From: Clostridia bacterium
Lineage (GTDB): Bacteria; Bacillota; Clostridia; Oscillospirales; Acutalibacteraceae
Direction: 5' to 3'
Assembly: GCA_017435665.1 (NCBI GenBank)
Contig: JAFSEP010000002.1
Span: 1-36,210, forward strand
Length of the DNA stretch: 36,210 bases
The notes below the pieces were generated by a model, which saw nothing but the letters and a program-made list of their open reading frames with translations, was not told the origin of the DNA and did no database searches. The translations under genes and the position numbers were made by a program. Positions 7,088 to 27,365 of the stretch are shown one piece after another; positions within the stretch are counted from its first letter, which is position 1; every line of letters starts with the position of its first letter.

Positions 7088-8224
7088 TCAGGCTTTTTCA
7101 ATTTTATTGATACAATTTATAAATTTTTTTACATCATTTTTCGTATTGAACACACCCAAGCTGACACGGACTGCTCCCTGCTCAGAGGTTTTTCGGTATT
7201 TATGGGCCTGAAAAGCACAATGATAGCCTGCTCTTACGCAGATTCCGTGTCTGTCAAGCCTTTCGGCGACCTCCTCGCTGTGAAGGCCTTTGCAGTTAAA
7301 GGCAATAAGAGGAACCGTGCGCAGGCTGTCTGCAGAGGAAAGAAGGCTCACGCCCTTAATATTCCGGAGGTAAGAATAAAGCTCACGGCAAAGCTGTGCT
7401 TCATAATTGTGGATTTGCTTTATTTCTCTGCCCTCAACAAAATCAATTCCTGCTCCTATGCTCATAATCCCCGGAAGGTTCAGAGTACCCGATTCAAGTC
7501 TGTCAGGATAGATATCGGGCTGATCGGGATTCAATGACTCGCTACCCGTTCCTCCGAAAATCAGCGGTCTCATACTGCATCTCTCGGATAATATAAGCAA
7601 GCCTGTACCCATTGCACCGTAAAGTCCCTTATGACCGGGAATGCACAGGGCGTCAATATTCATTTTCTTGATATCAATCGGAAGAACCCCTGCACTCTGA
7701 GCGCCGTCAACTATGAATTTCAGCCCGTAGCCCTTGGCAAGCATACCGATTTTTTCAACGGGCAGTACCGAGCCGAAAACATTTGAGGCGTGAGTGCAGA
7801 CAATCACCGACGTATTTTTTCTGATTTTTTCCTCAAAGGAGGCTAATGTTCTCTCATCATCACCCTCATATACCTGAGCCGTATCGTAGGTTATAACCCC
7901 GTCCTTCTGCAGTCTGTGAAGCACCCTCATAACGCTGTTATGCTCAAGGGATGAGGTAATCACGTGGTCGCCCTGACGGACAAGACCGTTTATGGCTGTG
8001 TTGAGGCTCTGGGTACAGTTCTGAGTAAAAATTACTCTGTCCGGACTTGCGCCGAAGAATTCAGCCGCCTTTTTCCTGACGGCAAAAACCTCCTCAGATG
8101 CTCTGCGGGACATAAGGTGACCGCTTCTGCCCGGATTTGCACTCAGCCGCATACCCCTGAGAACTGCCTGCGTTACGCACTCAGGCTTAGGAAAGGTTGT
8201 GGCGGCATTATCCAGATAAACCAT
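7088..8224 (-). CDS. Cysteine desulfurase family protein (class V aminotransferase fold)
   Basis: This is a PLP enzyme expected to release sulfur (or selenium) from cysteine (or selenocysteine) as an enzyme-bound persulfide. It starts MVYLDNAATTFPKP, has His95 in SSLEHNS, the PLP-binding Lys199 in PGHKGLYG and a candidate active-site Cys336 in AGYHCA. At 378 residues it fits the compact EGG-type desulfurase subgroup found in Clostridia rather than classical IscS. The start codon overlaps the stop of the upstream DUF3343 gene by one base. No iscU or sufU scaffold gene is adjacent, so Fe-S assembly is not the obvious role; sulfur or selenium transfer to its neighbour is a reasonable inference. 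Confidence 0.9.
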   Translation of the reverse strand: MVYLDNAATTFPKPECVTQAVLRGMRLSANPGRSGHLMSRRASEEVFAVRKKAAEFFGASPDRVIFTQNCTQSLNTAINGLVRQGDHVITSSLEHNSVMRVLHRLQKDGVITYDTAQVYEGDDERTLASFEEKIRKNTSVIVCTHASNVFGSVLPVEKIGMLAKGYGLKFIVDGAQSAGVLPIDIKKMNIDALCIPGHKGLYGAMGTGLLILSERCSMRPLIFGGTGSESLNPDQPDIYPDRLESGTLNLPGIMSIGAGIDFVEGREIKQIHNYEAQLCRELYSYLRNIKGVSLLSSADSLRTVPLIAFNCKGLHSEEVAERLDRHGICVRAGYHCAFQAHKYRKTSEQGAVRVSLGVFNTKNDVKKFINCINKIEKA

Positions 8225-8454
8225 CAGCCCTCCCCCTTTTCATAGCCCATATTCTTTATCCTGTTAAGGCTGACCACGGAATAAGCCTTCTCAATAACGG
8301 CTCTGTCAACGTAGAGAGCATAGTTACAGCCTTGCTTTCTTGCAGGATTTGTGTTTCTCCCCATAACGCTGCGTATACCCTGCCGTAAAAGTGCTTCCCG
8401 AGCCAGCTGAGCGTGAGTTACGGAGGAGAATTTTATATATGCTTTTGTATACAT
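8224..8454 (-). CDS. DUF3343-type small protein, putative Se/S carrier
   Basis: This is a 76-residue soluble protein of the DUF3343 type, a family associated with desulfurases and selenium metabolism. The only cysteine, Cys43 in RKQGCNYALYV, lies in the conserved core and could accept a persulfide or selenide; this is an inference. The start is taken as ATG at 8454, which has AGGGG at proper spacing; an in-frame GTG at 8463 is the alternative and would bury that site in the coding region. The gene overlaps the desulfurase by one base, so the two are almost certainly made together. Confidence 0.8.
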   Translation of the reverse strand: MYTKAYIKFSSVTHAQLAREALLRQGIRSVMGRNTNPARKQGCNYALYVDRAVIEKAYSVVSLNRIKNMGYEKGEG

Positions 8455-8514
8455 TGTAAACACCCCTGAATTTTATTTAATCAATATATTCTATGCAGGG
8501 GAATTAAAGGGAGA

Positions 8515-8547
8515 AACAAAAAATATCGGGCATCCTGAGATACCCGA
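8515..8547 (-). terminator. Terminator of the adenylation/condensation/carrier operon
   Basis: The stem 8526-8534 with 8539-8547 (nine pairs, one wobble on the minus strand) has a four-base loop and is followed on the minus strand by TATTTTTTGTTT. It ends the transcript shortly after the carrier-protein gene. Confidence 0.8.
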
Positions 8548-8560
8548 CATCAACAATATT

Positions 8561-8782
8561 TTATTTTGAAGCTATGTGTTCAGCCATTTCGCCGACGGTT
8601 TTATATCTGATAAAATCGGCAGCCTCAAGCTCGACGCCCGTTTCATTCTTGATTTCAGTCATAAGACAGACCGTGTCAAAGGAACTCAGGCCGAGATCAG
8701 ACTTAAAATTGTCTTCACTCTTGATTTCGTCAACTTCCACGTAGTTTTCAAGGATTTCAATAAGCTTTTCGATTGTAAACAT
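8561..8782 (-). CDS. Stand-alone acyl/peptidyl carrier protein
   Basis: This is a 73-residue acidic carrier protein. It has the four-helix pattern and the phosphopantetheine attachment motif DLGLSSFDTV; Ser34 aligns with the Ser of the classical D-S-L. The C-terminal helix is TVGEMAEHIASK. It is the third gene of an operon with a condensation-domain protein and an adenylating enzyme, so it most likely carries the acyl or aminoacyl group those enzymes make and use rather than serving general fatty acid synthesis. Its start overlaps the 3' end of the condensation gene by 97 bases. No phosphopantetheinyl transferase gene is nearby. Confidence 0.88.
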   Translation of the reverse strand: MFTIEKLIEILENYVEVDEIKSEDNFKSDLGLSSFDTVCLMTEIKNETGVELEAADFIRYKTVGEMAEHIASK

Positions 8783-10230
8783 TGAGGTTTTCCGTTCCTT
8801 TCCGCATCTGTCAATGCAATTTTTTCAAGAATTTCTCCCACAGTTATATCGGGATTTTCCGCACCGAGAATAAGCGCTTTCTCAATCTTTGAATAAAGAA
8901 CTCTAAGGTCATATTCAGCCTCAGGTTCCTGTCTGTATTCAAATATAAAATCGAGACCTCCGTCGTTTGTCCTATGAAGAACAGTTACGTAAAGAGGTAT
9001 CATTATAGCTCCGTTGTTATACCAGATGCTTCTTAAAGATTTCTCCATCTCTTCATCAATGCAGGTAATCTTTACGGGAGGCTGATATGAAAGTCCGAAG
9101 CTGTCATATGTAGAGTCAAACTTTGCTTCCTTGGGCATTGACTTATGTCTTTCCTTAAGTGTTTCAAGGAAGGAAAGCCTTGAGTGAGCATACATTTCCC
9201 CCTGCACCTGAGAAATCTTTTCTACACCCCGGCAGAAGGTTTCTTCGGGAGCGATAATGCTTCTCATGGGCAGGAAGTTTATACGAAGTCCGCCTGATTT
9301 CTTTTCCGCAATAGTGCCTCTGCGGTTGATAATCATCTTGAAGGAAACATCCTGCTGATTATCGTTGAAACATGAAAGACCCGTTCTGACGCCCATTGAA
9401 ATTGCCGCGAATACGGACAGATTTCTATCCTCGCACATTTCAAAAAGCTTTTTGCTTTCCTCTGCACCCATATGGAATTTCATCATATTTGCATCGGGAA
9501 GCCCTGAGTGAATGTCTGCATAACGCTGACCCGGCTTTTCCTTCTGCTGCTCCTTGAGTCTGCTTTCAAGCATAAAGTCGGTGAAAATCGGCTCTGTTGC
9601 CTTTGCAAGAGAGTCAAACCAATACTGCTTGTCTGCTTCCTTTTCTTCCGATTCTTCATAGGCAAGGTCCTTCTCAAGAGTGGGAATATAGGGTCTCATA
9701 GGCTTGGGATACGGTGTACCCTTTGTCTTATGAAGATATATCTCCATAACGTCATTGAGAAACACCTTCAGGGAATAGGCGTCCATTGCAAGATGCTGAA
9801 TTCTCATAAATATACCCGTATATCCGTCTGCGAAGTCAACCAGGATTATTCTGTGCAGCTTGCAGTTATACATAGGAATATTTACTCTTGAGAAAGCAAG
9901 GAGCTTATCGTAAGCCTCATCAACAGTCATTCTTCTGTAATCCCAATATTCAACCTTTATGCCGCTGTCTTCAACAACGTATTGATGAAGCTGAAGCTTT
10001 TTGCCCATTATGAAGCGAAGGCGCATTGTGTCGCAACGGGAAATTGCTTCGTATATTGCTTCCTTCATAACAGCCTTATCCATTTCGCCCTTCCAGTAAA
10101 GACCCATTCCGATATTGTTTACCGGATAGCCTGCGCCGTATTTCAGGGACATAAGATACATCATCTGCTGTGAGCTGGTTATGGGGTATGCCTCAACCTT
10201 TTTTCCGTCAGGTAATATAAATTCCTGCAT
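8686..10230 (-). CDS. Condensation-domain (CoA-dependent acyltransferase superfamily) protein
   Basis: This is a 514-residue free-standing condensation-type acyltransferase. The active-site motif reads QHLAMDA (145-151), keeping the catalytic His146 and the structural Asp150 of the HHxxxDG signature; the first His is Gln and the Gly is Ala. An INRRG segment near residue 300 and an RINFLPMR segment near 320 are typical of the second half of the fold. The family forms amide or ester bonds between carrier-bound acyl groups and an amine or alcohol acceptor. The ATG at 10230 has an AAAGGAAG site. The last ~32 codons run through the carrier-protein gene in another frame, so the natural C-terminus may be shorter or the two genes may once have been fused. 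The donor and acceptor cannot be read from sequence. Confidence 0.85.
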   Translation of the reverse strand: MQEFILPDGKKVEAYPITSSQQMMYLMSLKYGAGYPVNNIGMGLYWKGEMDKAVMKEAIYEAISRCDTMRLRFIMGKKLQLHQYVVEDSGIKVEYWDYRRMTVDEAYDKLLAFSRVNIPMYNCKLHRIILVDFADGYTGIFMRIQHLAMDAYSLKVFLNDVMEIYLHKTKGTPYPKPMRPYIPTLEKDLAYEESEEKEADKQYWFDSLAKATEPIFTDFMLESRLKEQQKEKPGQRYADIHSGLPDANMMKFHMGAEESKKLFEMCEDRNLSVFAAISMGVRTGLSCFNDNQQDVSFKMIINRRGTIAEKKSGGLRINFLPMRSIIAPEETFCRGVEKISQVQGEMYAHSRLSFLETLKERHKSMPKEAKFDSTYDSFGLSYQPPVKITCIDEEMEKSLRSIWYNNGAIMIPLYVTVLHRTNDGGLDFIFEYRQEPEAEYDLRVLYSKIEKALILGAENPDITVGEILEKIALTDAERNGKPQCLQSKSLLKSLKTTWKLTKSRVKTILSLISA

Positions 10231-10269
10231 TCAATCACTTCCTTTTGTTAAAATGGCAATAGTAAACAC

Positions 10270-11823
10270 TCAAAAATAAAACGCTGTTCTTTTTATCTTA
10301 CCCGTTGAGGTTCTCTCAAAGGGCTTATTTCTTATTCTGAAGGAGCTTATCTGTCTGTCGGAATTAAGGGAAATATTGACTCTGTCCACGATTTTTGAAA
10401 TCTCACCTTCAACATCATCAATCCCCATAGACTGAGCAAGAAGCTCATCGGGATATATTTCCGCAATAATACTGTCCTTTTCTGCAAAAACAACTATTTC
10501 CTTAACTATACCGTCATCAACAAAGCAGTTTTCGATTTCCTCGGGAGAGATATTTTCTCCGTTTGAAAGAATAATAAGATTCTTCTTTCTGCCCACAAGA
10601 TAAATGTGGTCACCGTCAAGATAGCCAAGGTCCCCTGTGTGAAGGAAGCCGTCCTCGGTAAAGGCTTCGGCTGTTCTTTCGGGCTTCTTATAGTAACCGA
10701 GCATAACCGAGGGACCCTTAACCTGAATTTCACCGTCAACGGTTCTCACCCGGTCAATACCGAGAAGCTTTCCGTTTGAATACTTGCACACCTCCGAGAA
10801 ATCCGAGGTGGAAATTCTGGGACTGCATTCGCTCATACCGTAGCCCTGTCTTGCAGTTATGCCGTATTTTTCAAATTCATCTATGAGTGCACCGCTTAAA
10901 AATGCACTTCCCGCAATCATTCTTCTGAAGTTTTTGCCCACAACAAGCTCTGCCGCTTCTCTCTTTGAAAGCTCAGGATGTCTTCTTTCTGCAATCTTTA
11001 TCCTTGTGAGCATTGACTTGCAGATTGAGGGAACAATTCTCATAATTGTAGGCTCAAATCTGAGTATATTGGTATAAAGGTCGGCAAGTGCTCCGTTAAG
11101 GCAGAGGGTACCGCCGTCATAAAGGGTTTTCAGCACGTCGCAGGCATAGCAGAAAACGTGATGCATAGGAAGGATTGAGAAGCTCACGTCATCATCATCC
11201 ATATTATAAGCATCATATGATGAGTTTGCCGCAAGATTGCGGTTTGAGAGCATAACGCCCTTTCTCTCCCCCGTTGTTCCCGAAGTATAAATAATCAGCG
11301 AGCATTCATCGGGCTTCTCCTTTATATCGGAAAGTCCGGCAAATTTCGTATCAGAGGAATATTCCTCATAAATCTGCTCAAACCATTGCCAGTTACCGAG
11401 AGATACAACCTGACTTATACCGTCAATTCTGTCGCTGATTTCTCCTGCTCTGTGACAAAGCTCCTCCTCACAGAATACCATTTCAATGTCAGCGTCAGTG
11501 AAAAGCTCAACACCCTCCTCAACGCTGATATCGGGCGAAAATGGCACAACCACATTTCCGCTGAATATCATACCCGTAAGGCAGACTATATATTCATAGC
11601 TTGTCTTTCCGATAAAGGCAATGTGCATTCTGTCACGCTTTACCGAACGGATATATCGGCTGACTGCAAGGCAGTCCTCATAAAATCTTTTATAGCTTTT
11701 AACGCAGATTTCACCCTCACGGATAAATCTGCAGAAATCTTTGTCACCATAGGTATCGGCGGCAAAGGCAGCAAGCTGCTTCACCGTTTCAATCTGTTTA
11801 TCCAAAGATATAACACTCCCCAT
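10270..11823 (-). CDS. Adenylate-forming acyl/aminoacyl ligase (AMP-binding)
   Basis: This is an ANL-superfamily enzyme of 517 residues that activates a carboxylic acid as its adenylate and transfers it to a thiol, here probably the phosphopantetheine of the neighbouring carrier protein. Visible motifs are the P-loop YTSGTTGERKG (179-189), ILPMHHVF, YGMSECSPR, the hinge segment HTGDLGYLDGD with GRKKNLIILSNGENISPEEIE, and the C-terminal STGKIKR with catalytic Lys509. The ILPMHHVF and YGMSE segments look more like fatty-acyl ligases than amino-acid adenylation domains, so a fatty or aryl acid is my favoured substrate; this is an inference. It is the first gene of the operon, with its own promoter at about 11.93 kb. 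Confidence 0.87.
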   Translation of the reverse strand: MGSVISLDKQIETVKQLAAFAADTYGDKDFCRFIREGEICVKSYKRFYEDCLAVSRYIRSVKRDRMHIAFIGKTSYEYIVCLTGMIFSGNVVVPFSPDISVEEGVELFTDADIEMVFCEEELCHRAGEISDRIDGISQVVSLGNWQWFEQIYEEYSSDTKFAGLSDIKEKPDECSLIIYTSGTTGERKGVMLSNRNLAANSSYDAYNMDDDDVSFSILPMHHVFCYACDVLKTLYDGGTLCLNGALADLYTNILRFEPTIMRIVPSICKSMLTRIKIAERRHPELSKREAAELVVGKNFRRMIAGSAFLSGALIDEFEKYGITARQGYGMSECSPRISTSDFSEVCKYSNGKLLGIDRVRTVDGEIQVKGPSVMLGYYKKPERTAEAFTEDGFLHTGDLGYLDGDHIYLVGRKKNLIILSNGENISPEEIENCFVDDGIVKEIVVFAEKDSIIAEIYPDELLAQSMGIDDVEGEISKIVDRVNISLNSDRQISSFRIRNKPFERTSTGKIKRTAFYF

Positions 11824-11915: not shown

Positions 11916-11944
11916 ATTATATGCAAAACGTCTGTTTATAACAA
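11916..11944 (-). promoter_or_regulatory. Promoter of the adenylation/condensation/carrier operon
   Basis: On the minus strand, TTGTTA (11939-11944) and TATAAT (11916-11921) are 17 bp apart, about 95 bp upstream of the ligase start. The -35 box abuts the T-run of the ispF terminator. Confidence 0.6.
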
Positions 11945-24781: not shown

Positions 24782-24789
24782 TATCAAAA

Positions 24790-24952
24790 ATTGATAGAGG
24801 CGCATCTTATCATCAGTATTTGCCGCATAAAAGCTTACCGAAAGCGTGGCAGTGAAAGGGATGGATGCCGAGGATAAGACGTGGTGAATCTTAGTCCGGC
24901 TGCCGGAAATAAGATTCCGGTTGCTGTCGCAGAAATGCGGAGAGCTATCATA
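24790..24952 (+). ncRNA. Lysine riboswitch (L-box) aptamer
   Basis: The outer P1 helix pairs GATAG (24793-24797) with CTATC (24945-24949). Between them are the L-box landmarks in order: AGAGGCGC, AGTA, GTGAAAGGGA, ATGCCGAGG, GTGAATCTTAGTCC with its returning strand, GGCTGCCGG, GGTTGCTGTCGCA and ATGCGGAGAGCTATC. It precedes dapA and lysA, whose products make lysine, which is the expected context for feedback by lysine. Confidence 0.93.
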
Positions 24953-25007
24953 CAAAATTTATAACACACAATATCTTTATATTTATACTGTGCTGTAATT
25001 TTTGGAT

Positions 25008-25071: not shown

Positions 25072-25959
25072 ATGAAAAACACTATTTTCAAGGGCGTTGC
25101 AACAGCTATCGTCACTCCCTTCAAGGGCGAAGAAATCGATTACGAGAGCTTTGCAAGATTAATCGAATGGCAGATTGAACAGGGCGTTGATGCTATTGTT
25201 GCCGCAGGTACTACCGGTGAAGGCTCAACTCTTACCGATGAAGAGCACAGAGACGTTATCAAGTTCTGCGTTGATCAGGTAAAGGGCAGAGTTCCCGTTA
25301 TTGCAGGTACAGGCTCAAACAATACCTCATACGCTATCGACCTTACAAAATTCGCCTGTGAAGCAGGTGCTGATGCAATGCTTGTTGTTACCCCCTATTA
25401 TAATAAGGCTACACAGAAGGGTCTTATCGCTTCATTCACAGCTATTGCCGATGCTTCAACAAAGCCCTGTATTCTTTATAATGTGCCCAGCCGTACAGGC
25501 TGTAACCTCTTACCTGCAACTGTTGCAGAGCTTGCAAAGCATCCGAACATCGTTGCTATCAAGGAAGCAAGCGGTAACATTTCACAGATTGCTCAGGTTG
25601 CTGCTCTCTGCGGTGACAGCATCGATATTTATTCAGGTAACGATGACCAGATTATTCCTATTCTCTCTCTCGGCGGCAAGGGCGTTATCTCTGTTCTTTC
25701 AAATGTTATGCCCAAGGAGACTGCAGATATGTGCAAGCTCTATTTCGAAGGAAAGACAAGCGAAGCTGCAAAGCTTCAGCTGAAGTATCTTTCACTCGTT
25801 GATGCTCTGTTCTGCGAGGTTAACCCCATTCCCGTCAAGGCAGGTCTTGCTGCTATGGGCTATTGCGAAAACTCGCTCAGATTACCGCTTACATCAATGG
25901 AGCCTCAGAACGAAGAAAAGCTCCTCGGTCTTATGAGACAGAACGGTATTGAAATCTGA
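25072..25959 (+). CDS. dapA: 4-hydroxy-tetrahydrodipicolinate synthase
   Basis: DapA condenses pyruvate with aspartate semialdehyde, the first committed step of the diaminopimelate/lysine pathway. The 295-residue TIM-barrel protein has AAGTTGEGSTL (Thr47-Thr48), Tyr136 in ILYNVPSRTGCN and the Schiff-base Lys164 in VAIKEASGN. Full length. ATG at 25072 has AAGGAG. It is controlled by the lysine riboswitch and followed 83 bp later by lysA, with two short hairpins in the gap. Confidence 0.97.
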   Translation: MKNTIFKGVATAIVTPFKGEEIDYESFARLIEWQIEQGVDAIVAAGTTGEGSTLTDEEHRDVIKFCVDQVKGRVPVIAGTGSNNTSYAIDLTKFACEAGADAMLVVTPYYNKATQKGLIASFTAIADASTKPCILYNVPSRTGCNLLPATVAELAKHPNIVAIKEASGNISQIAQVAALCGDSIDIYSGNDDQIIPILSLGGKGVISVLSNVMPKETADMCKLYFEGKTSEAAKLQLKYLSLVDALFCEVNPIPVKAGLAAMGYCENSLRLPLTSMEPQNEEKLLGLMRQNGIEI

Positions 25960-26042: not shown

Positions 26043-27365
26043 ATGAGTCACACAGATAACATTGACTTCTTATGCGGTAATGTTTCCGCCGATGAAAACG
26101 GACATCTGTTGTTTGCAGGTCAGGATACGGCTGCACTTGCAAGGGAATACGGCACTCCCCTTTATCTTATGGATGAGGAGAGAATCAGGGAACGCTGCAG
26201 AACCTATATAAAAGGACTGAAAGATGCCTTCGGTGACAAGGGACAGGCTCTTTTTGCTTCAAAGGCGGCATCCTTCAAGCGTATTTATGAAATTATGCGT
26301 GAGGAAGGAATGGGCATTGATGTTGTATCATCGGGTGAAATCTGCACGGCTCTGAAGGCAGGCTTCCCCCTCAGTAAGGCATACTTCCACTCAAACAACA
26401 AAACCGATGCAGATATAGCCTACGCCATAAAAAACGGTATAGGACACTTTGTTGTTGATAACCGTGAGGAGCTTTATGCTATTGATAAGGAAGCCGAAAA
26501 TCAGGGAATCCGTCAGAGGATTATGCTGAGAATAACTCCCGGCATTGACCCCCACACCTTTGCAGAGGTTGCAACGGGTAAGGTTGATTCAAAATTCGGC
26601 TCTGCCATTGAAACGGGTCAGGCTGAGGAAATGGTGAAAATTGCCCTGAGCCTTGAGAATATCACCCTTTCGGGCTTTCATTGCCACGTAGGCTCTCAGG
26701 TGTTCGACTCCGATGTTTTCCTCAGAGCCGCAGACGTTATGCTTGACTTCATTGCAGATATAAAGGAAAAATTCGGCTTCTCACCCGAAAAGCTCGACCT
26801 TGGCGGCGGCTACGGTGTACGCTATAAGGCTGAGGACCCCCACATTGATATATACGATAACATTCTGCAGGTGGGTGCTTTCGTTAAGGAAAAGGTTGCA
26901 AAGCTGGGCATTGATATGCCTGAGATTTCCCTTGAGCCGGGCAGAAGCATTGTTGCCGATGCAGGTATGACTCTTTACACGGTAGGTACCGTAAAGAAAA
27001 TCCCCGAATTCATTAACTATGTCTCCGTTGACGGCGGTATGACGGACAATGTCCGTTTTGCTATGTACGGTGCACCCTACACCCTTTTCGCCGCAGAAAA
27101 GCTTAACGAAAAGGCCGATATGGAGTGCAGCGTTGTGGGAAGATGCTGTGAAAGCGGTGACATAATTCAGGAAAATGTTATGATGCCCGAAAGCATCTGC
27201 AGAGGAGATATTTTAGCTTGTCTGACAACAGGTGCTTACAACTATTCAATGGCTTCAAACTATAACAAAATCCCCCGTCCCCCCATTGTAATGCTCAACG
27301 AAGGCAAAAGCTACGTTGCAGTAAGAAGGGAGACAATCGAGGATTTAACAATGTATGATGTATAA
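26043..27365 (+). CDS. lysA: Diaminopimelate decarboxylase
   Basis: LysA decarboxylates meso-diaminopimelate to L-lysine, the last step of the pathway. This fold-type III PLP enzyme of 440 residues has the PLP-binding Lys74 in ALFASKAASFK, SSGEICTALKAGF, the FHCHVGSQ motif, LDLGGGYGVRY, the phosphate-binding EPGRSIVADAG and the CCESGDI active-site Cys segment from the partner subunit. Full length. ATG at 26043 has AAAGGA upstream. It is likely co-transcribed with dapA from the lysine-controlled promoter, and a strong terminator follows. Confidence 0.97.
   Translation: MSHTDNIDFLCGNVSADENGHLLFAGQDTAALAREYGTPLYLMDEERIRERCRTYIKGLKDAFGDKGQALFASKAASFKRIYEIMREEGMGIDVVSSGEICTALKAGFPLSKAYFHSNNKTDADIAYAIKNGIGHFVVDNREELYAIDKEAENQGIRQRIMLRITPGIDPHTFAEVATGKVDSKFGSAIETGQAEEMVKIALSLENITLSGFHCHVGSQVFDSDVFLRAADVMLDFIADIKEKFGFSPEKLDLGGGYGVRYKAEDPHIDIYDNILQVGAFVKEKVAKLGIDMPEISLEPGRSIVADAGMTLYTVGTVKKIPEFINYVSVDGGMTDNVRFAMYGAPYTLFAAEKLNEKADMECSVVGRCCESGDIIQENVMMPESICRGDILACLTTGAYNYSMASNYNKIPRPPIVMLNEGKSYVAVRRETIEDLTMYDV

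Follow-up and report, generated by a model that had tools for sequence, protein, structure and literature searches.

Overlapping genes for a condensation enzyme and its carrier protein in a putative fatty acid amide locus of a Clostridia bacterium

The A-C-ACP trio and the described fatty acid amide systems

The fatty acid amide (FAA) systems of gut Clostridia, said to have been described by Chang et al. 2021 (Nat Microbiol 6:792-805), are reportedly made of three free-standing parts. We analysed a 36,210-nucleotide stretch of genomic DNA from a Clostridia bacterium (the window; GenBank assembly GCA_017435665.1, contig JAFSEP010000002.1, positions 1 to 36,210). It carries three neighbouring genes, hereafter the trio, that encode an ANL ligase (A), a condensation enzyme (C) and an acyl carrier protein (ACP). 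The C reading frame runs on for 97 nt, its stop codon included, within the ACP gene and out of frame with it, a feature absent from an earlier reading made from the sequence alone (the sequence-only reading). As judged from sequence comparisons, this C/ACP gene overlap is unusual and well supported.

The discovery of FAA systems is credited to Chang et al. 2021 in PMC13142362, where the passages on the Oaa system describe OaaA, OaaACP and OaaC as three free-standing proteins joining oleic acid to aminovaleric acid. The data-availability section of the same paper assigns the structure 12KH to OaaC of Coprococcus eutactus. Its passages on the FAA condensation enzymes give a motif of the (D/H)HxxxDS type, with the second His kept in >99%, a conserved Asp and a last residue that is S in 42%, A in 36% and G in 17%, and state that dimerisation of OaaC keeps its carrier site closed off until holo-ACP binds (PMC13142362).

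OaaC was the best solved relative of the window C (12kh; phmmer E 4.2e-71, 243 bits, residues 14-470), the next chain reaching 50 bits. With a profile of 53 C relatives, OaaC scored 411 bits and the runner-up, bacitracin synthase, 98.6. The two proteins are identical at 146 of 452 aligned residues (32%). In a tree, all FAA-type rows, OaaC included, split from three nonribosomal peptide synthetase (NRPS) condensation domains with a support of 100 in the Shimodaira-Hasegawa-like approximate likelihood ratio test (SH-aLRT); the tree was made with a quick method and SH-aLRT only, its long branches were flagged, it held 3 outgroup rows and starter C domains were left out. These comparisons indicated that C groups with FAA condensation enzymes and not with NRPS condensation domains. 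The chemistry of the trio would thus be that of an ordinary member of an already described kind, the FAA type, and its likely product an N-acyl amine. The sequence-only reading had guessed at an N-acyl or O-acyl product, of which an N-acyl conjugate is the best guess; its statement that no described system has exactly this set fails, since the FAA systems of gut Clostridia have the same three parts and C is homologous to OaaC.

Like the oleoyl aminovaleric acid system of C. eutactus, the trio consists of a free-standing ligase, carrier and condensation enzyme and comes without a thioesterase, and the conserved His and Asp of OaaC are kept in C. It departs from that system as follows: the C motif is QHLAMDA and that of OaaC DHRLMDS; OaaC is a 465-residue chain without a tail and C has a C-terminal tail; and the C and ACP genes overlap. 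Compared with the general FAA motif, QHLAMDA agrees in the His, the Asp and the final Ala and departs in its first residue. That residue is Q or H among members of the window's clade, which we define as 33 loci (the window, L051-L081 and L083). Relatives outside the clade and nearer to OaaC have DHxxxDS or DHxxxDA.

The sequence-only reading had proposed a minimal free-standing ligase/condensation/carrier operon, and this description held. The three open reading frames (ORFs) are intact on the minus strand in the order A, C, ACP, and their Pfam matches (AMP-binding, Condensation and PP-binding) each exceed their own cut-off (Table 1). The catalytic residues it had listed are also present: S181, G182, T184, G185, K188, G189 and K509 of A were invariant among 42 aligned sequences, H146 and D150 of C among 53, and the carrier has its Ser34.

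C-like proteins were found in all 34 genomes of the window's genus (at least one condensation gene each); 25 genomes from other genera had none. Among 391 genomes drawn from across the class, 20 matched the C profile at E ≤ 1e-30, one of them being the genome of the window. The C relatives (54 loci) belong mostly to metagenome-assembled Clostridia and Oscillospiraceae, many of them from ruminant or deer hindgut. Within the clade, an A-like match lies upstream of C in 29/33 loci and an ACP is present in 32/33, in agreement with conservation of the trio as a unit, and the A-C-ACP set is free-standing in relatives. The possibility that the trio is a recent fragment of a larger synthetase was rejected: it was fused into such an enzyme in no relative examined, and C is a separate ORF in 33/33 clade loci. 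The trio also differs from canonical modular NRPS, as each protein carries one function and the C motif is not HHxxxDG.

The same genome holds two further A/C/ACP sets, on contigs 56 and 15. Like the window trio, both have free-standing A, C and ACP, and their C proteins are 26% (contig 56) and 23% (contig 15) identical to the window C. Unlike the window trio, they are without a long C/ACP overlap, and their motifs are SHMIMDF and SHIVTDA. The gene order is A-C-ACP on contig 56 and C-A-ACP on contig 15, with a phosphopantetheinyl transferase (PPTase) gene adjoining. The sole PF01648 (PPTase) match of the genome is the one that adjoins the contig 15 set (34320-38670; L022:4321-8671); a separate AcpS-like match was not found in this genome, which is 98.9% complete. 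In relatives that lack the long overlap, the trio is often adjoined by a second AMP-ligase, about 550 residues long and 25-33% identical to the window A. It lies upstream of A in L085, L086, L087 and L091 and downstream of ACP in L093-L096, L098, L099 and L103.

Overlap of the C and ACP genes and probable selection on the second frame

An ACP gene overlapping the end of C was found in 32 of the 33 clade loci, the shared stretch measuring 97 nt in 25 loci, 91 in 2, 100 in 2, 88 in 2 and 46 in 1. ACP has its own ATG in 32/32 of these loci, and the C stop stands at a nearly constant place across loci via different codons (TGA, TAA and TAG). In the one other locus, L075, A and ACP have both been lost and the C tail is still open. 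Outside the clade, no long overlap was found with ATG starts among 25 relatives with ACP located (by script, in 16/22 loci of one set and 9 loci of another); the longest measured 17 nt (L084; 68 nt with a GTG start). These counts leave out L075, which has no ACP, and L104, which meets a contig end. In the tree, one origin suffices for the long overlap (32 rows, SH-aLRT 100, quick method). C and ACP are kept without a neighbouring A in L068-L070 (L070 has just 1 kb upstream); together with the loss of both genes in L075, this indicates that the order of loss in this small subclade was maybe A, then ACP. Five overlapping loci (L072-L074, L076 and L077) have DLEMSS instead of DLGLSS/DLGMSS before the carrier Ser, and the end of their tail differs.

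In passages of a 2008 survey of 338 genomes, none of 715 co-directional overlaps of at least 60 nt is judged real, and the longest overlap taken as real is holD/rimI of Enterobacteria, with 32-56 nt (PMC2478687). Overlaps of 4 nt and 1 nt are given as by far the commonest in an excerpt of a further source (PMC10666635). As in holD/rimI, the window pair are co-directional neighbours that share coding DNA in two frames, and the arrangement is conserved among relatives. Unlike holD/rimI, the window overlap reaches 97 nt, its partners are an enzyme and its own carrier, and selection on the second frame was measured by the freezing of synonymous codons. Within the library searched, a query pairing overlapping genes with terms for acyl carriers and condensation brought up one unrelated paper and no report of this overlap.

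Synonymous ACP codons were markedly more conserved within the overlap than after it. In a first set of 11 genomes, their identity was 1100/1222 in the overlap vs 585/1282 after it; 7 genomes without the overlap gave 180/357 and 253/527 in the corresponding segments. For the 25 loci with an LTKSR tail, identity fell from 5701/6329 (0.90) within the overlap to 3473/7080 (0.49) beyond it, and nine carriers without the overlap showed no step (203/433 and 372/795, both 0.47; 0.469 and 0.468). As a group, the remaining 7 overlapping loci displayed a weaker step (304/400 vs 381/572). After thinning to 14 loci the identities were 1770/1901 and 918/1990, and third ACP positions differed at 0.119 in the overlap vs 0.599 outside. 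Along the ACP gene, identity ran at 0.80-1.00 up to the C stop and at 0.38-0.58 after it (last short bin left out).

The step was also present in comparisons independent of the tree, for which 14 pairs were picked with non-overlapping paths. In each of the 14, synonymous changes were scarcer in the overlap, and 11 pairs reached p < 0.05 individually; pooled, 20/350 synonymous comparisons differed in the overlap vs 153/416 after it (p 3.1e-27). Three control pairs without the overlap gave 24/54 vs 31/80 (p 0.80). Since third ACP positions are second C positions, the low change at these sites is as expected from selection on the C protein. Both frames of the overlap thus appear to be under purifying selection, and because synonymous codons are frozen in the overlap and controls show no step, the tail of C is probably selected as a protein.

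The tail of C and alternative explanations

AlphaFold2 models were built as single chains for A (pLDDT 88.0, pTM 0.79; predicted local distance difference test and predicted template modelling scores) and, from 53 sequences, for C (mean pLDDT 90.0, pTM 0.87). In the latter, the tail was predicted as one helix at a block pLDDT of 53-73, preceded by a low-confidence linker at about residues 481-488. In the window, the last 33 residues of C carry a net charge of +7 and ACP one of -10; tail residues include Leu, Ile, Val and one Trp. A search for similar tails elsewhere in the genome returned none besides a chance-level match (E 0.65).

We tentatively favour a role of the tail in docking the carrier, as the two charges are opposite and the tail and ACP are written in the same DNA. 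It may hold the acidic ACP near the C active site, or favour a C-ACP complex over an OaaC-like dimer; given that the OaaC dimer blocks the carrier site, a tail favouring the complex would have a clear use. A more doubtful proposal is that the shifted reading of the acidic carrier start gave the enzyme a cationic tail that docks that same carrier.

We estimate at about 0.7 the probability that the trio encodes an FAA-type pathway and that the tail is selected as a protein. Several observations weigh against this joint claim. The claim is read from genes, the substrates and product being predictions, and the sequence comparison to a proven FAA system covers C. C shares only 32% identity with OaaC, and its motif begins with Q where FAA enzymes are given as D or H. 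A stop in L073 shortens the overlap to 46 nt. Third-position changes of C in the overlap were synonymous in 27 of 41 cases; this matches the expectation of 27.0, so the synonymy test in the C frame gives no support. In L075, the tail is 57% identical to those of L069/L070 and the body 85-87%, and the tail alone is therefore not strongly held there; it could work with ACP and lose its constraint with it, or the ACP frame could have held it. The helical moment of the tail (0.41) was not unusual against shuffles (mean 0.33, sd 0.10), and an amphipathic tail was rejected. A conserved, unstructured RNA signal may lie in the overlap instead; like dual coding, an RNA signal lowers synonymous change.

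Nearly as likely as docking is a membrane role, in which the tail would anchor C at the lipid surface, the site of acyl chains and lipophilic products. The predicted 25-residue helix fits such an anchor by its net charge and its Leu, Ile, Val and Trp residues, but not by its helical moment. Moreover, when read in the shifted frame, the GAA and GAC codons of the acidic carrier yield Lys-rich ones, which would make the charge of the tail a by-product of the overlap.

A product other than a fatty amide, e.g. an acylated amino acid, an ester or a modified cell-surface amine, is unlikely but deserves consideration. The leading Q of the motif and the distance from OaaC are compatible with it, the donor and acceptor named here being putative. 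Against it, the trio has the same three-part layout and falls in the same tree group as OaaC, and the DHxxxDS and DHxxxDA motifs are found in outside-clade relatives nearer to OaaC.

It is less probable still that the overlap is kept for RNA reasons (ribosome binding, translational coupling or an RNA-binding protein), with the tail as a passenger. In its favour, some constraint is also present in the C codons immediately ahead of the ACP start (413/562, 0.73), as expected of a ribosome-binding site. However, single sequences folded no better than shuffles (z 1.09, -0.19, -1.04, 0.57 and 0.43), and the consensus fold reached -5.04 kcal/mol, both partners having changed in 1/26 pairs. Same-family carriers that lack the overlap are not constrained at their starts. 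The constrained stretch extends over the full length of the overlap, as far as the C stop, whose position is kept almost the same by different codons.

We consider it very unlikely that the overlap is accidental, C having lost its stop and the second frame lying open through conservation of the ACP protein. Because the C stop coincides with conserved Leu/Met-Ser codons of the carrier motif, ACP partly dictates where it stands, and the L075 tail drifts once ACP is gone. Conservation of the ACP protein, however, cannot hold synonymous sites, which differed far less often in the overlap in the tree-independent pairs. When synonymous codons were resampled in the 14 thinned loci, the C frame stayed open in 15-41% of trials, depending on the locus, and had the same stop in 1.7-12.8%; the products over loci (5e-9 for the open frame, 4e-20 for the same stop) overstate the case because the loci share ancestry. 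Least likely of all is a ribosomal frameshift making a C-ACP fusion: a -1 shift within the 97 nt would enter the ACP frame, but no canonical slippery heptamer was seen by eye in the C frame, the constraint reaches the C stop, whereas a useful fusion would require the shift to occur close to the ACP start so that carrier helix 1 is retained, and ACP has its own ATG throughout.

Locus features, proposed pathway and implications

Table 1 Features of the trio locus, in window coordinates
Feature	Position	Strand	Basis
A: free-standing ANL ligase, 517 aa	10270..11823	-	PF00501 169.3 bits + PF23562 35.5 bits
C: free-standing condensation enzyme, 514 aa, motif QHLAMDA (H146, D150)	8686..10230	-	PF00668 108.7 bits
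ACP: 73-aa carrier protein, phosphopantetheine site Ser34 in DLGLSSFD	8561..8782	-	PF00550 44.1 bits
Dual-coded overlap, 97 nt including C stop: C end / ACP start, different frames	8686..8782	-	Clade conservation, frozen synonymous ACP codons
Cationic tail of C, residues 489-513, predicted single helix	8692..8766	-	AlphaFold2
Promoter-like TTGTTA-N17-TATAAT, 10/12 consensus matches	11916..11944	-	Match count not above chance
Terminator-like hairpin after ACP, 13 pairs, then T run	8522..8551	-	Sequence

The trio is flanked upstream by ispF/RNase M5/holA-type genes and downstream by genes for a cysteine desulfurase and a diadenylate cyclase. The sequence-only reading had framed it with a shared promoter and a terminator. 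Both signals are there, but shuffled sequence has at least as many promoter-like sites (6 found here vs 8.8 expected), and the hairpin alone is notable. It had also pointed out that the locus has no PPTase, transporter or thioesterase. None was found among the scanned neighbour genes; the PPTase encoded on another contig makes its absence at the locus not telling. A transporter beside the trio in relatives was considered and rejected, as the large ORFs upstream of A in some of them encode type II topoisomerase subunits (L027 and L028) and ATP synthase (L030). The upstream genes being different in relatives, the trio sits among differing housekeeping genes in different genomes.

No Rfam match was found at the trio locus; elsewhere in the window there were two, to a lysine riboswitch and a tRNA. 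The riboswitch (24787-24955, plus strand, 84.2 bits) precedes a dihydrodipicolinate synthase gene (25072-25959) and an Orn/DAP/Arg decarboxylase gene (26043-27365). The desulfurase (7088-8463, minus strand) is of the EF2568 type and adjoins a 79-residue protein with a weak likeness to PF11823, a putative Se/S carrier family (24.1 bits, cut-off 25).

We propose that A would activate a fatty acid as acyl-AMP and transfer the acyl group to holo-ACP, whose Ser34 would be primed by the PPTase encoded elsewhere in the genome. C would then move the acyl group from ACP onto a small free amine, and the N-acyl amine would be released without a thioesterase. In the clade, C would have gained its cationic C-terminal helix once, by reading through an old stop into the ACP gene, and both frames would have been retained since that gain.

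If the tail is selected as proposed, this co-directional dual-coding overlap would exceed any accepted in the 2008 survey. It would be a rare testable case of bacterial dual coding, with near relatives without the overlap as natural controls and relatives that have lost A, or A and ACP, as a further natural comparison. The trio itself would extend a host-signalling lipid pathway from human gut Clostridia to a hindgut genus. Should the tail dock the carrier, the two partners, sharing 97 bases, would have to change together, and partner choice would be locked among the several carrier/condensation pairs of a cell. The system may show whether shared DNA keeps an enzyme and its carrier matched.

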